NCBI GenBank assembly: GCA_001767495.1
Contig: MELA01000123.1
Span: 1,727-36,581, forward strand
DNA: 34,855 nucleotides
Origin: Acidobacteria bacterium RIFCSPLOWO2_12_FULL_65_11
GTDB taxonomy: Bacteria; Acidobacteriota; Vicinamibacteria; Vicinamibacterales; CAVVIG01
Reading direction: 5' to 3'
Below, in pieces: positions 6,605 to 33,190 of this stretch. Position 1 is the stretch's first letter, and every line of letters begins with the position of its first letter. The translations under genes and the position numbers were made by a program. The notes beneath the pieces were generated by a model. It was given only the letters and a program-made list of their open reading frames with translations, had not been told where the DNA came from and made no database searches.

Positions 6605-8714
6605 AGGCTTGCGGAGCGGCCTCCGGCTGTACGGCGCTGTCATCGTGCTGGCCGGAGGCCTGACGTATTGGAACAGCCTGTCGGGACCCTTCATTCTTGA
6701 CGATCAGACCTCGATCGTCGGCAACGAACAGATTCGCCGCCTGTGGCCGCCGCCGGATGTGCTGTTCCCGGCCCGAGAGCTTTCCACCGCAGGGCGACCC
6801 GTTGTCAGTGTCTCGTTTGCGCTGAACTACGCGTTTGACGGGCTGGAGGTCGACGGCTATCACGTCGTCAACGTCGCGATCCATCTGTGCTGCGCGCTTC
6901 TTCTGTTTGGCGTCGTTCGACGCACGCTGAACCTGCCTTCAGTCGTAGTGTCCGGCTTCAGCCGGACCTTGTTGCCGCAATCCGCCGGCCACTCTGCGAA
7001 CCTCGCGCTGGCCTCCGCGCTCATCTGGATGCTGCATCCGCTGCAGACCGAAGCGGTCAACTACGTCACGCAGCGAACCGAGCTGCTGATGGCCTGTTTC
7101 GGCCTGCTGACGTTGTACGCCGGCATGCGCGCTCACGAAAGCACGCTCGCACGTGGCGTCCGCCTCGATGCGGACCATGCTTTCGTACGTAGTGTCCGGC
7201 TTCAGCCGGACCGTGGTTGGGCGTGGCAATGGTTGGCGGTGGTGGCCTGCACGTTGGGCGCGGGCAGCAAAGAATCGATGGCGACCGTGCCGGTTCTGAT
7301 TGTTCTCTTCGACCGGATCTTTGTCTTCGAGTCGCTGAAAGAGGCGTGGCGCGTTCGGTGGCGCTTGTACCTAGGGCTTGCCGCCTCCTGGATCGTGCTG
7401 GCGGCCTTGATGTGGTCCGGCCCACGGTCGTCGTCCACGGGATTCTCGACGGGCGTGAGTCCGTGGGTCTACTTGCTCAATCAGACGGTGCTGATCGTCC
7501 GGTACCTGAGACTGACCTTCTGGCCGAGCTCGTTGGTCATTGATTACGGCGTGCCGCAGCCGTTGACGCTCGCCGACGTCATGCCGTACGCCGCGCTGCT
7601 CGTGCTCCTGCTGCTCTCAACGATGGTGGCGCTGAAGTACCGGCCGAAGCTGGGATTCCTGGGAGCCTGGTTCTTCATCACCCTGGCTCCCGCGTCGAGC
7701 GTCCTTCCCATCGCCACCTGGGTGGGCGCCGAGCGGCGCATGTATCTGCCGCTGGCGGCCGTCGTGGTCCTCTTTGTCGCGATGAGCGCGACCGTGCGAG
7801 GGGCGACGACCATCAGGGTGGTGGTCGTCGTCCTGCTTTCGGCGGCGCTCGCGATGGGCACGGTACGTCGCAACCGCGACTACCAGTCTGCCATCACGCT
7901 CGCACAGACGGTGATCGAGCGGTACCCGCACGCCCGCGCGCATACGTGGCTGGGGGAGGGGTTGATCATCGAGGGCCGCCGGGAGGAGGGGATCGCTCAG
8001 CTGCGCGAGGCGACCGCGGGTGATGCCAAAGCCCATCTCGGCCTGGGCCTTACCTTGTTCGAGGACGGAAGGCTGGACGAAGCCGTCGACCAGCTTCAGC
8101 AATTCGTCCGCAAAGAACCGCTGCTGTTGGAGGTGATCTCGGCCCGCCAGACGATCGGCGCGGCCTTTCTCAAACAGGGCAAGCTCGGCGACGCCGAAGC
8201 GGAGTTCCGCGAGCTTGTGCGGATGCGACCGGCAGATGCAGATGCGCACGGCCTGCTTGCCGAGGCACTGTTCAAGCAGGGGAAATTCGAAGAGGCCATC
8301 GGCCACTATCAGCAGCAGCTCAAGGCGAAGCCGAACTTGGTCGACGTGCTGACCAATCTCGGGATCTCGTCGATCGCGATCGGCCGGGTCGACGAGGCCA
8401 TTCGGCACTTTCGGCGGGCGGCCGAGCTCGACCCGGGAAACGGCGGCGCCGAGCGGAACCTGGCGCGGGCGCTCCTGGAGAAGCGGGACTACAACGAGGC
8501 GGCCGTTCACGCCGAGCGCGCCATCGACCTTGCGGCCGACGATCCGGTCGCGCACGACGAGCTTGGTCTCGCGCTCGCAGGTCAGGGCAAGCTGGATGAG
8601 GCGATTGTCGAGTTCCGCCGTTCGCTGCAGCTCGATCCAAACGACGCCGAAGTCCGCGACCACCTCGCCGCCGCCCTCCGCGCACGGGCCGGCTCATCGC
8701 CCGTCAAGCCGTAG
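6558..8714 (+). CDS. TMTC-like membrane protein with C-terminal TPR repeats, interrupted in frame by REP elements
   Basis: The N-terminal half is a multipass membrane domain of the kind found in TPR-containing O-mannosyltransferase-like (TMTC) proteins. Motifs include YWNSLSGPFILDDQTSIV, RPVVSVSFALNYAFDGLEVD and HPLQTEAVNYVTQRTELL. The C-terminal 270 residues contain about seven TPR units (for example ALFKQGKFEEAIGHYQQQL). Start is uncertain: GTG 6531 and ATG 6558 overlap the sulfatase gene, whereas TTG 6609 follows its stop and has AAGGACTGAAGG just upstream. Two REP palindromes and one decayed copy lie inside the coding frame, encoding VVSGFSRT (6945-6967) and RSVRLQPDR (7189-7211). These lengthen periplasmic or loop segments without breaking the frame. 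The likely role is sugar transfer or assembly at the envelope with the upstream sulfatase; this is inferred from family and context. Confidence 0.8.
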   Translation: MFHGRAENTHQYSRTEGLRSGLRLYGAVIVLAGGLTYWNSLSGPFILDDQTSIVGNEQIRRLWPPPDVLFPARELSTAGRPVVSVSFALNYAFDGLEVDGYHVVNVAIHLCCALLLFGVVRRTLNLPSVVVSGFSRTLLPQSAGHSANLALASALIWMLHPLQTEAVNYVTQRTELLMACFGLLTLYAGMRAHESTLARGVRLDADHAFVRSVRLQPDRGWAWQWLAVVACTLGAGSKESMATVPVLIVLFDRIFVFESLKEAWRVRWRLYLGLAASWIVLAALMWSGPRSSSTGFSTGVSPWVYLLNQTVLIVRYLRLTFWPSSLVIDYGVPQPLTLADVMPYAALLVLLLLSTMVALKYRPKLGFLGAWFFITLAPASSVLPIATWVGAERRMYLPLAAVVVLFVAMSATVRGATTIRVVVVVLLSAALAMGTVRRNRDYQSAITLAQTVIERYPHARAHTWLGEGLIIEGRREEGIAQLREATAGDAKAHLGLGLTLFEDGRLDEAVDQLQQFVRKEPLLLEVISARQTIGAAFLKQGKLGDAEAEFRELVRMRPADADAHGLLAEALFKQGKFEEAIGHYQQQLKAKPNLVDVLTNLGISSIAIGRVDEAIRHFRRAAELDPGNGGAERNLARALLEKRDYNEAAVHAERAIDLAADDPVAHDELGLALAGQGKLDEAIVEFRRSLQLDPNDAEVRDHLAAALRARAGSSPVKP
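6945..6967 (+). repeat. REP palindrome inside the TMTC-like gene (plus orientation)
   Basis: GTAG-TG head followed by the palindrome GTCCGGCT-TC-AGCCGGAC. It begins exactly on a codon boundary and encodes V-V-S-G-F-S-R-T. It sits in a predicted loop between RTLNLPS and LLPQSAGHSANLA. Confidence 0.9.
7158..7211 (+). repeat. REP doublet inside the TMTC-like gene (one decayed, one intact)
   Basis: A decayed core GTCCGC-CTCGAT-GCGGAC at 7158-7175 is followed, 36 nt core to core, by an intact GTAG-headed REP at 7189-7211. Here the intact copy is read in a different frame from the one at 6945 and encodes SVRLQPD. Both keep the gene open. Confidence 0.85.
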
Positions 8715-12888: not shown

Positions 12889-12964
12889 ATCCGGCTTCAG
12901 CCGGATTAGGTCCGCCTGAAGGCGGACACTACGTACGCCCTGTAGGGTCCGGCTTGAGCCGGAC
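12889..12964. repeat. REP cluster between divergent metallo-hydrolase and VWFA genes
   Basis: Three palindromes lie here: a headless variant ATCCGGCT-TC-AGCCGGAT (12889-12906), a minus-oriented C-type copy (12910-12932, GTCCGCCT-GA-AGGCGGAC then ACTAC), and a plus-oriented G-type copy with a GTAGG head (12942-12964). They sit just upstream of the VWFA promoter region. The rest of the 253-nt gap shows no gene. Confidence 0.88.
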
Positions 12965-22655: not shown

Positions 22656-22758
22656 GTCCGGCTCAAGCCGGACACTACGACTGAACACGAACGTAGTGTC
22701 CGCCTTCAGGCGGACCGCTGTAACTGAACACGAATGTAGTGTCCGCCTTCAGGCGGAC
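22656..22758. repeat. REP cluster with a 43-bp tandem duplication between gdhA and the mutase
   Basis: A minus-oriented G-type REP (22656-22678) is followed by two plus-oriented C-type REPs (22693-22715 and 22736-22758; core GTCCGCCT-TC-AGGCGGAC). The last two are preceded by CTGAACACGAACGTAGT and CTGAACACGAATGTAGT, so a 43-bp unit is tandemly duplicated. The last copy occupies the -35 region of the mutase promoter and, read through, would add a spurious MSAFRRT N-terminus to that protein. Confidence 0.9.
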
Positions 22759-30380: not shown

Positions 30381-31081
30381 ACTGCCGCGAAGTCGAAGCC
30401 TACCTGTGCCGGAAGAACGACGGTCATCTGATCCGGATCGTCGGGCCCTCGTTCGATCTGGTGTCGGCCTGGGCGTCACGTGGTGTGCCACTTCGGATCG
30501 CCTGCCGGGGGATCGATCGATACGTCGAGCGCTACTACGCGAAGGGACCGCGGCGCCGGCCAGTCAGGATCGATTTCTGCGAGGCTGACGTCCTCGAGGC
30601 GTTCGATGAGTGGCGGCGCACGACGGGGTTGGCAGCAGATGCCGCGGCCGGGACCGGCAACGACGGCGACAGGTTGGGCGGCCGTCGCCTCTCGGGCCTC
30701 TCGCTGCCGGCGCACCTCGAGCGTGCGCTGCGGCGTCTGACATCGGCGCGGGCCTCGGGTGCGCTCGATGCCACCTTCGATCGCGTGCTCGACGAGGTGT
30801 CGCGGGAGCTGGATGCGGCGCGACAGACTGCGGGCGGCGTGCGCGGGGCGGCGCGACAGGCGCTCGTCGAGCGGCTCGCCGCGCTCGATCGCGAGATGCT
30901 TCGGGCGCTGCGATTGACACTCGACGAAGCATCCCGCGCCGCGCTGACACGCGAGGCCGAAGAGGATCTGACGGCCTTCCGGGCCGGGATGGCTGCCGAC
31001 GTGTTCGCGCGGGCCCGCGACGCGGCCGTTGACAGACTGCTGCGCGAGCGCTTCGGGCTGCCGACGGTTGCCTTTCTCTGA
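30365..31081 (+). CDS. Conserved hypothetical protein, mainly helical
   Basis: About 238 residues of unknown function. A small N-terminal region (YCREVEAYLCRKNDGHLIRI then VGPSFDLVSAWASRGVPLRI) includes ACRGIDRYVERYYAKG. It is followed by a long Ala/Arg/Glu-rich helical part, likely coiled coil, ending in LLRERFGLPTVAFL. No catalytic motif is visible. The frame is open from TTG 30323, overlapping coaX, but the first residues there are encoded by the TTGCAGATT repeat, so the true start is uncertain; TTG 30365 avoids the overlap. Its place at the end of the valS-nadC-birA-coaX run suggests cotranscription, which says little about its role. Confidence 0.65.
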   Translation: MQIADYCREVEAYLCRKNDGHLIRIVGPSFDLVSAWASRGVPLRIACRGIDRYVERYYAKGPRRRPVRIDFCEADVLEAFDEWRRTTGLAADAAAGTGNDGDRLGGRRLSGLSLPAHLERALRRLTSARASGALDATFDRVLDEVSRELDAARQTAGGVRGAARQALVERLAALDREMLRALRLTLDEASRAALTREAEEDLTAFRAGMAADVFARARDAAVDRLLRERFGLPTVAFL

Positions 31082-31090
31082 GCAACGGCG

Positions 31091-31194
31091 CTACCACGGA
31101 GGTCACAGAGAACAAACGGAGGTCACGGCAAGAGGCCAAGAATGTATCCGTGTCCTCCGCTGTCGGATTTCATCCTCCGTGGACTCCGTGGTAG
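31091..31194. repeat. CCACGGAGG-type inverted repeat element before the RNA methyltransferase
   Basis: CTACCACGGAG (31091-31101) is perfectly inverted as CTCCGTGGTAG (31184-31194). Between them are further copies of GGAGGTCAC (31098-31106, 31118-31126) and, inverted, TCCTCCG. The element fills the whole 121-nt gap. It is open in the downstream frame, which makes the methyltransferase frame look 58 residues longer than the real gene. Confidence 0.75.
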
Positions 31195-31202
31195 ATCTTT
31201 TC

Positions 31203-32450
31203 ATGATCTCGGCTGGAGACAACCTATCGCTCACCATCGAGAAGCCCGTGGCCGGCGGCCGGATGCTCGCCCGCCTCGACGGTCGAATCATCCTCGTATC
31301 AGGTGCGATTCCCGGCGAGCGTGTCAGGGCCCGCGTGGAGCGTGTCACGAAGGGCGTGGTGTACGCTGCCGCCGCGGCCATCGACGAGCCCTCGCGCGAT
31401 CGCCGACCGGCGGCTGGCGATCCGCTGTGCGGCGGCTGTCTCTACGCGCATGTCGCGTATCCGCGCCAGCTCGATCTGAAGGCGCGGGTCGTTGAGGACG
31501 CGTTCGCGCGCGTCGGACAGCTGGCGCTGCCAGGCCCCGTTCAGGTCGTGGCGTCCCCGGAGCAGGGCTACCGGATGCGGGCGCGGCTGCACGTCCGCGG
31601 TTCTCAGATCGGCTTCTTTCGAGAAGGCACGCACGAGATCTGCGACGTGCTTCAGACCGGGCAGCTGCTGCCGGCGACCTGCGACGCGCTCGATCGGCTC
31701 GATGTCGCCAGGCGCTCGCTGGGACTCGAGGCCGTGCGGGAGATCGAGCTGGCCGAGAACCTCGATGCCTCCGCCCGCGTGGTGTACCTCGACGGCCAGG
31801 GTCCCATTGACGCGCGACAACTCGACCTGCTCGGCGCGACCCAGGGGCTGACCGGGGTGGCAGCCGCCGATGGCGTCTGCGGTGACGCGTACCTCATCGA
31901 TGTTCTGACTGTCGGCAATGGGCCGCCCGTCTCGATCCGCCGCCATGTGCTGGCGTTCTTTCAGGGCAACCGGTACCTTCTCGAGGCGCTCGTCGCGCAT
32001 GTCATGGGACAGCTGGCGCCCGCAGAGAGGGTCGTCGATCTCTACGCGGGCGTCGGCGTGTTCTCGATCGCGGCCGCCGCTTGTGGGGCTCGGGTCACGG
32101 CGGTCGAAGGCGACACGGTTGCGGCCGCTGACCTGCGCGTGAACGCGGCCGCGGTCGGAGACGGCGTGGTCGCGATTCACCAGCCGGTAGAAGAGTTTCT
32201 GCGCGGCGCCTCGGTGGGGGTACACACCATCATCGTCGATCCGCCGAGGACGGGCCTGTCGCGCGAGGCGCTTGAGGGTCTCGCCTCGCTCGACGCGCGA
32301 CGAATCGTGTACGTGTCGTGCGATGTGGCCACGCTGGCCCGCGACACACGCCGCCTCGTCGATGGCGGCTACACCCTGGCGCGGATCGACGCGTTCGACC
32401 TGTTCCCCAATACGCCGCACGTCGAGACGGTGGCCGTTTTCGATCGGTGA
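31203..32450 (+). CDS. Class I SAM-dependent RNA methyltransferase (TrmA/RlmD-like 5-methyluridine type)
   Basis: A 415-residue enzyme that methylates uridine in rRNA or tRNA. It begins with a TRAM-like RNA-binding domain (LSLTIEKPVAGGRMLARLDG with SGAIPGERVRARVERVTKG). DPLCGGCLYAHV follows, a partial iron-sulfur site lacking the usual first cysteine. The catalytic half has the SAM motif VVDLYAGVGVFSIAAA, then DPPRTGLSREALEGL and YVSCDVATLARDTRRL, which contains the nucleophilic Cys, and ends FDLFPNTPHVETVAVF. ATG 31203 fits the family N-terminus; the upstream open frame is repeat sequence. The precise target base cannot be told between RlmD, RlmC and TrmA. A REP doublet begins 21 nt after its stop. 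Confidence 0.9.
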   Translation: MISAGDNLSLTIEKPVAGGRMLARLDGRIILVSGAIPGERVRARVERVTKGVVYAAAAAIDEPSRDRRPAAGDPLCGGCLYAHVAYPRQLDLKARVVEDAFARVGQLALPGPVQVVASPEQGYRMRARLHVRGSQIGFFREGTHEICDVLQTGQLLPATCDALDRLDVARRSLGLEAVREIELAENLDASARVVYLDGQGPIDARQLDLLGATQGLTGVAAADGVCGDAYLIDVLTVGNGPPVSIRRHVLAFFQGNRYLLEALVAHVMGQLAPAERVVDLYAGVGVFSIAAAACGARVTAVEGDTVAAADLRVNAAAVGDGVVAIHQPVEEFLRGASVGVHTIIVDPPRTGLSREALEGLASLDARRIVYVSCDVATLARDTRRLVDGGYTLARIDAFDLFPNTPHVETVAVFDR

Positions 32451-32471
32451 TCGACGATCCGCGGACGAGTC

Positions 32472-32529
32472 GTAGTGTCCGGCTTCAGCCGGACCGTGGA
32501 TGGGTCGTAGTGTCCGGCTTCAGCCGGAC
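32472..32529 (+). repeat. Left REP doublet of the RAYT unit
   Basis: Two identical GTAG-headed G-type REPs in direct orientation, separated by CGTGGATGGGTC. Perfect inverted partner of 33052-33109. Confidence 0.95.
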
Positions 32530-32557
32530 AAGGATCGCATCTTGCCAGCAACAAGGT

Positions 32558-33061
32558 ATGTTCACTGGCAACCCCGGCCACCTGAGGTCGTTCGACTACA
32601 CCGGTCCGCATCGGTATTTCCTAACGTTTTGTACCAGTACGCGCCGGCATCTGTTCACAACCCGCGACCGAGTTGACCTTGTATTGATGCAGATTTTGCG
32701 AAGTGCCGCTGACGAACGGTTTGCAATTGTTGCGTACTGCTTCATGCCGGACCACGTCCATCTCCTCATCGAAGGGCAGTCCGATTCGTCGGACTGCCGT
32801 CGATTCATCGCCCGTGCGAAACAGTTCTCTGGCTTCCACTATTCGAAGGCCTTCGGTCATCGCCTGTGGCAGAGATACGGGGTCGAGCGCATCCTCCGGA
32901 GCGAAGAGGCGACCCTGGTCGCCGCGAGATATGTGCTGGAAAATCCGCTCCGGGCCGGCCTGGCCAGGTACGTGGAGGAGTACCCGTTCCTCGGCTCGAC
33001 GACGCATACAGTCAGCGAGATTCTGGCGGTCGTGTCTGATATCTCCTCACGGTCCGGCTGA
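32558..33061 (+). CDS. REP-associated tyrosine transposase (RAYT, HUH/Y1 family)
   Basis: A 167-residue single-stranded-DNA transposase-like protein. It has the Y1_Tnp core: YFLTFCTSTRRHLF near the N-terminus, the HUH metal motif MPDHVHLL (H66, H68), FIARAKQFSGFHY, then LWQRYGVERILR and ARYVLENPLRAGLA with the candidate catalytic Tyr125. RAYTs are known to bind and cleave GTAG-headed REP palindromes. The palindromes flanking this gene and spread through the window all have this head, which makes them its likely substrates. ATG 32558 has AAGG three bases upstream; a longer open frame reaching back into the methyltransferase gene is rejected. The TGA stop (33059-33061) lies inside the first right-hand REP, so the final SG residues come from the repeat. 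The gene appears intact. Confidence 0.92.
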   Translation: MFTGNPGHLRSFDYTGPHRYFLTFCTSTRRHLFTTRDRVDLVLMQILRSAADERFAIVAYCFMPDHVHLLIEGQSDSSDCRRFIARAKQFSGFHYSKAFGHRLWQRYGVERILRSEEATLVAARYVLENPLRAGLARYVEEYPFLGSTTHTVSEILAVVSDISSRSG

Positions 33062-33190
33062 AGCCGGACACTACGACCCATCCACGGTCCGGCTGAAGCC
33101 GGACACTACGTACTGTCCACGGTCCGGCTGAAGCCGGATCCCGCGCGCATCGATCGTAACGTGTTACGTGGCGTCCGGCTTCAGCCGGAC
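33052..33190 (-). repeat. Right REP array of the RAYT unit
   Basis: Minus-oriented REPs lie at 33052-33074 and 33087-33109. A third copy at 33122-33139, ending GGAT, keeps the 35-bp period, and a headless palindrome lies at 33173-33190. The first contains the RAYT stop codon, and the last contains the stop of the convergent amidotransferase gene. The remainder of the gap holds nothing else recognisable. Confidence 0.92.

Follow-up and report, generated by a model that had tools for sequence, protein, structure and literature searches.

A single-copy RAYT gene between exactly matching inverted REP doublets in an uncultured acidobacterial lineage

REP-associated tyrosine transposases (RAYTs, also TnpA-REP) flanked by inverted REPs are a published class (PMC2817692), and REP dimers and long TIRs around RAYT genes have likewise been published (PMC3733652). 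REPs located very near or directly after the RAYT stop codon were noted by Nunvar et al. (PMC2817692), and overlaps at the 3' end are recorded in PMC3733652. According to PMC8266576 and PMC6006769, the current view is that a RAYT is present in single copy and that gene and REPs do not move as a unit.

We analyzed a stretch of 34,855 nucleotides (the window) from the genome of Acidobacteria bacterium RIFCSPLOWO2_12_FULL_65_11 (termed G000), which contains a RAYT gene between inverted REP doublets. The closest described system is the gammaproteobacterial REPtron (PMC2817692; 4er8), with which the locus shares a single-copy HUH/Y1 gene, inverted GTAG-tagged REPs, hundreds of cognate REPs and a downstream REP at or adjoining the stop codon. 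It differs in its acidobacterial host, the short REP with a 7-bp stem, the location of the stop codon within the REP and the arms, each a head-to-tail doublet whose private spacer is the same on both sides. TIRtrons with their TIRYT genes are also RAYT-like genes in long inverted repeats, several of them in Acidobacteria (PMC3733652); their TIRs are unrelated to GTAG REPs, whereas the arms found here consist of GTAG REPs of a family abundant in the genome. REPINs (Bertels and Rainey, 2011, PMC3116915) are, like the arms, pairs of REPs that lie close to a RAYT and have conserved spacers, but they are inverted pairs forming one hairpin, whereas the two REPs of each arm stand in direct order. IS200/IS605 elements have the same catalytic domain and a gene bordered by palindromes; in contrast to these, the protein scores below the cut-off of the IS200 model, the gene is present once and evidence of transposition as a unit was not found.

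The accessible literature joining RAYTs with Acidobacteria yielded no description of the REP family of this locus. The locus is new as an acidobacterial member of the class with unusually well matched arms, while its layout is standard: the earlier note on this DNA had presented the arrangement as unusual, yet the published definition of the class is precisely a RAYT between inverted REPs (PMC2817692).

The RAYT gene and its flanking REPs

The RAYT reading frame is intact and encodes a Y1 domain (Table 1). The protein scores 90.5 bits against NF047646, the NCBI model for REP-associated tyrosine transposases (cut-off 80), and only 30.7 bits against the IS200 model NF033573 (cut-off 55). Its HUH motif is HVH (MPDHVHLL) and its tyrosine motif ARY-x-LENP. 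An AlphaFold model of the protein (pLDDT 78.5) was compared to all PDB chains, and the best structural match was 4er8 (TM 0.66-0.67), the E. coli TnpA-REP bound to a REP hairpin. Aligned by sequence to 4er8, the protein lines up in its HUH region as well as at the positions WQ, R and Y, of which WQ and R have been linked to the recognition of GTAG in E. coli (PMC6006769, PMC8266576). No other Y1 transposase gene was found in the genome, a draft that is 98% complete. The locus combines a RAYT-type Y1 domain, inverted GT(A/G)G REPs, abundant cognate REPs and a single gene copy for its REP type, as RAYT/TnpA-REP loci do, and the earlier assignment as an intact RAYT gene with GTAG-REPs fits the data.

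Table 1. Features of the RAYT locus (positions in the window)
Feature	Positions	Strand	Remarks
Left neighbor: TRAM-domain RNA (uracil-5) methyltransferase-like gene	31029..32450	+	PF05958, PF01938; true start may be further in
REP L1, GTAGT foot and 18-nt palindrome	32472..32494	+	7-bp hairpin, single-stranded GTAG foot
12-nt spacer CGTGGATGGGTC, locus-private	32495..32506	+	
REP L2, same as L1	32507..32529	+	28 bp upstream of the RAYT start codon
RAYT / TnpA-REP gene, 167 aa	32558..33061	+	PF01797, NF047646, 4er8
REP R1	33052..33074	-	RAYT stop codon 33059-33061 in the loop
12-nt spacer, identical to that of the left arm	33075..33086	-	
REP R2	33087..33109	-	
Spacer CGTGGACAGTAC	33110..33121	-	G000: here only; G015: same RAYT locus, 1 mismatch, in context
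REP R3, decayed	33122..33144	-	foot GCGGG, not GTAGT
REP R4, GTGG foot, opposite orientation	33168..33190	+	stop codon of the amidotransferase gene (convergent) lies within
Right neighbor: class I glutamine amidotransferase / peptidase C26 gene	33181..33915	-	PF07722, PF00117

The RAYT gene lies between two arms located about 520 bp apart. The doublets at 32472-32529 and 33052-33109 pair exactly and one further outward base pairs as well, making 32471-32529 the exact reverse complement of 33052-33110 over 59 bp, spacers included. The claim of perfect inverted doublets around an intact gene thus held, and with mismatches allowed the arms reach 71 nt at 93% identity. Each arm consists of GTAGT-GTCCGGCTTCAGCCGGAC, the spacer CGTGGATGGGTC and the identical REP repeated, that is, two identical 23-nt copies (GTAGT followed by GTCCGGC-TTCA-GCCGGAC) in direct, head-to-tail order. 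When folded alone, a single REP forms a DNA hairpin of 7 bp that leaves the GTAG foot unpaired. A genome-wide search for CGTGGATGGGTC in REP context, with up to three mismatches, matched these two arms only; this shared private spacer indicates that the arms have a common origin or exchange sequence. Beyond its doublet, the right side has a decayed REP as its third and an oppositely oriented REP as its fourth unit, so the locus does not form a tidy box with two ends. An Rfam search gave no match at the locus, and a simple sigma-70 scan and a search for T-run terminators found neither element around the RAYT gene.

The stop codon of the RAYT gene is part of the first right-hand REP, the TGA of the gene being the TGA of the REP loop. 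In the window and in L113, L114, L118, L120 and L122, the downstream REP starts nine bases ahead of the stop codon's end; these six RAYTs represent five loci, and the wider clade compared comprises 11 tree rows. L196 shows the same join, and so does L198, where the REP is degenerate. Its conservation across loci shows that gene and downstream REP stayed together at different loci. A stop codon within a REP was also considered as a RAYT-specific trait, which was rejected: the neighboring amidotransferase gene ends within a REP, too, so the location of the stop codon is partly a habit of the REP.

The REP family across the genome

Exact palindromes of the pattern GTNCGGCTNNAGCCGNAC occur 388 times in the 3.55-Mb genome and GT(A/G)G-tagged REPs 552 times, and the reversed-pattern control gave 0 for both. 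With a family spread over the whole genome, repeated REPs at the locus are expected and a bare REP is unsurprising. Within the window, REPs of the same family were observed at 6950, 7194, 8727, 11262, 12889-12964, 22656-22758 and 25966. The genome G015, which has a RAYT at the same locus, contains 411 GT(A/G)G REPs, and seven genomes (G002, G005, G011, G012, G024-G026) contain neither REPs nor a close RAYT. Three others (G001, G003, G017) have 33-73 REPs without a close RAYT, showing that REP counts track the RAYT imperfectly.

Head-to-tail REP pairs are present at 32 places in the genome. The spacers of such arrays mostly repeat within one array and differ between arrays, and in clear cases (e.g., C16 and C140) the spacer is composed of the end of the upstream flank and the start of the downstream flank. 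Such a composition is the mark of a simple tandem duplication of a REP together with adjoining DNA. REP pairs in opposite orientation do occur elsewhere in the genome. In a sample comprising L162-L181 and the window, two REP stem types were seen, CCGGC and CCGCC. Different stem types were joined in all eight head-to-head and in 18 of 28 tail-to-tail pairs, and the same stem type in 25 of 33 head-to-tail pairs, a tally biased by its source, 20 genome stretches from contigs already known to bear REPs.

More distant acidobacterial RAYTs (L124, L129, L134 and L131) are flanked by differing GTAG-tagged palindromes of their own (GTAGCAAGGCCCTTCAGGGCCGCT at L124, for instance), which would be expected were every RAYT paired with a separate REP type. 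In the genome G098 two RAYT genes (L116 and L117) are located 6 kb apart on one contig, with 73% DNA identity and different flanking REPs.

The same site in related genomes

The amidotransferase gene was identified in 25 genomes of the family, and in 22 of these the methyltransferase gene is located beside it on the stretch examined. A RAYT lies between the two genes in three of the 22: in G000 and in G014 and G015, two genomes of another genus. One genome, G007, has a different gene framed by REPs at this position (L107, 700-1361; a 219-aa frame). A decayed RAYT had been suspected in this REP-rich site of 0.9 kb and was rejected in view of the different open frame. The remaining 18 genomes, which all belong to genera other than g1, the genus represented in the comparison by G000 alone, have neither; the empty sites that the earlier note had suggested looking for were therefore found. 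Because 18 genomes of the family have an empty site, an old insertion or repeated loss at this site is real.

At the shared locus the RAYT has diverged about as much as its neighbors. The identity between G000 and G015 is 71% for the RAYT, 76% for the amidotransferase and 76% for the arginyl-tRNA synthetase; between G000 and G014 it is 65%, 72-73% and 70-71%, respectively. The arms of the relatives are less well matched: the longest exact inverted match is 34 bp in G015 and 8 bp in G014, where the downstream REP is decayed. Among the 25 homologues compared, the 59-bp arms of the window are the longest, followed by 35 bp. The G015 arrays have a period of 49 bp on one side and of 35 bp on the other, and the spacer CGTGGACAGTAC, private to the locus in G000, recurs at the G015 locus. 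Since the arms differ in the relatives while the gene stays, the exact match in the window reflects a recent local event.

The orientation of the RAYT is the same in G000 and G014 and reversed between the same neighbors in G015. In this draft genome a REP-associated rearrangement adjoins the flipped gene (L113, 4700-6600): the 3' end of the methyltransferase gene is duplicated, the two copies enclose another gene of about 1.4 kb, and each copy has REPs next to it.

In the RAYT tree the three same-locus RAYTs group only together with a long-branched fourth one, L035/L119 from G004 (support 97/85; 89/93), which is weak to moderate support. In the species tree, which lacks resolution in its backbone, a clade uniting the two genera (g1+g11) is not rejected (p-AU 0.35) and not demonstrated either. 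These sequences would be read most simply as the result of a single insertion that predates the divergence of the two genera and was then inherited vertically, with a residual probability left for independent insertions at one site. In the G004 relative (L119, 4001-4501) the reading frame is open, and both the first histidine of the HUH motif (DQVH) and the tyrosine of catalysis (AKEILETP) are lost; G004 has only one REP of the family, and this gene is possibly dead or repurposed.

Origin of the matching arms

We consider it likely that the locus is a REPtron, with a single-copy, mostly vertically inherited RAYT that has the GTAG-tagged REP family as its substrate. The RAYT would probably bind the top-strand REP in its folded form, through the GTAG foot and the hairpin, and would probably nick and rejoin it, whereby REPs spread in trans and the gene stays put. 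The flanking arrays probably grow by local tandem duplication of a REP with adjoining DNA, in units of 35 bp here. The arms probably became alike through a recent exchange in inverted orientation, be it by gene conversion, by strand switching or because recombination between the arms inverted the gene. Copying within the local arrays, gene conversion or inversion explains the identical arms best, and they are not to be taken as the ends of a freshly moved transposon.

Inverted arms might instead serve as a recombination switch, in which homologous exchange flips the RAYT, keeps the arms alike and possibly makes expression phase-variable. Perfect arms of 59 bp at this distance are plausible recombination substrates, and the reversed RAYT of G015 speaks for such a switch. 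This one flipped case comes from a single, further rearranged draft genome, with its methyltransferase 3' end repeat and inserted gene, and could be a rare accident; G000 and G014 agree in orientation, and the sigma-70 scan gave no promoter-like site around the gene. We therefore regard a switch as unlikely. Quite unlikely, too, is the more far-reaching version that the arms repeatedly invert the RAYT in place and that the gene, with a stop codon written into the REP that serves as substrate, is coupled to the condition of that REP; if true, the locus would be an invertible, self-linked REPtron.

The earlier note had seen in the locus a self-contained mobile unit that moved recently or is kept identical by gene conversion. 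Gene conversion fits the data; recent movement found no support. For an IS-like unit that was recently transposed to this site and has the identical arms as its ends speak the length of the arms, the longest of the homologues, as recent transposition would also give, the lack of a RAYT between the same two genes in 18 family genomes, and the relatives at other loci, which keep inward-facing REPs and often the stop codon in the downstream REP. Such a unit is nevertheless very improbable: the genome contains one copy, additional REPs lie outside the right arm, and published work (PMC8266576, PMC2817692 and PMC6006769) gives no sign of RAYT mobility. Moreover, two genomes of another genus share the locus with an old RAYT that has diverged like its neighbors, and their arms are unmatched; for the relatives with the gene at this site, this is the situation that the earlier note itself regarded as making recent transposition unlikely. 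An assembly artefact as the cause of the symmetry is extremely improbable: the metagenome-assembled genome is a draft of 153 contigs and short-read assembly can be misled by inverted repeats, but 59 bp are below common read lengths, the outer units differ between the sides, which renders a collapse unlikely, and the gene order matches G014.

As a REPtron, the locus places a layout first described only in gammaproteobacteria in an uncultured acidobacterial lineage, with a clear pairing of RAYT and REPs. The site is available in filled, flipped, decayed and empty form and can be used to probe how a RAYT persists during turnover of its flanking REPs.
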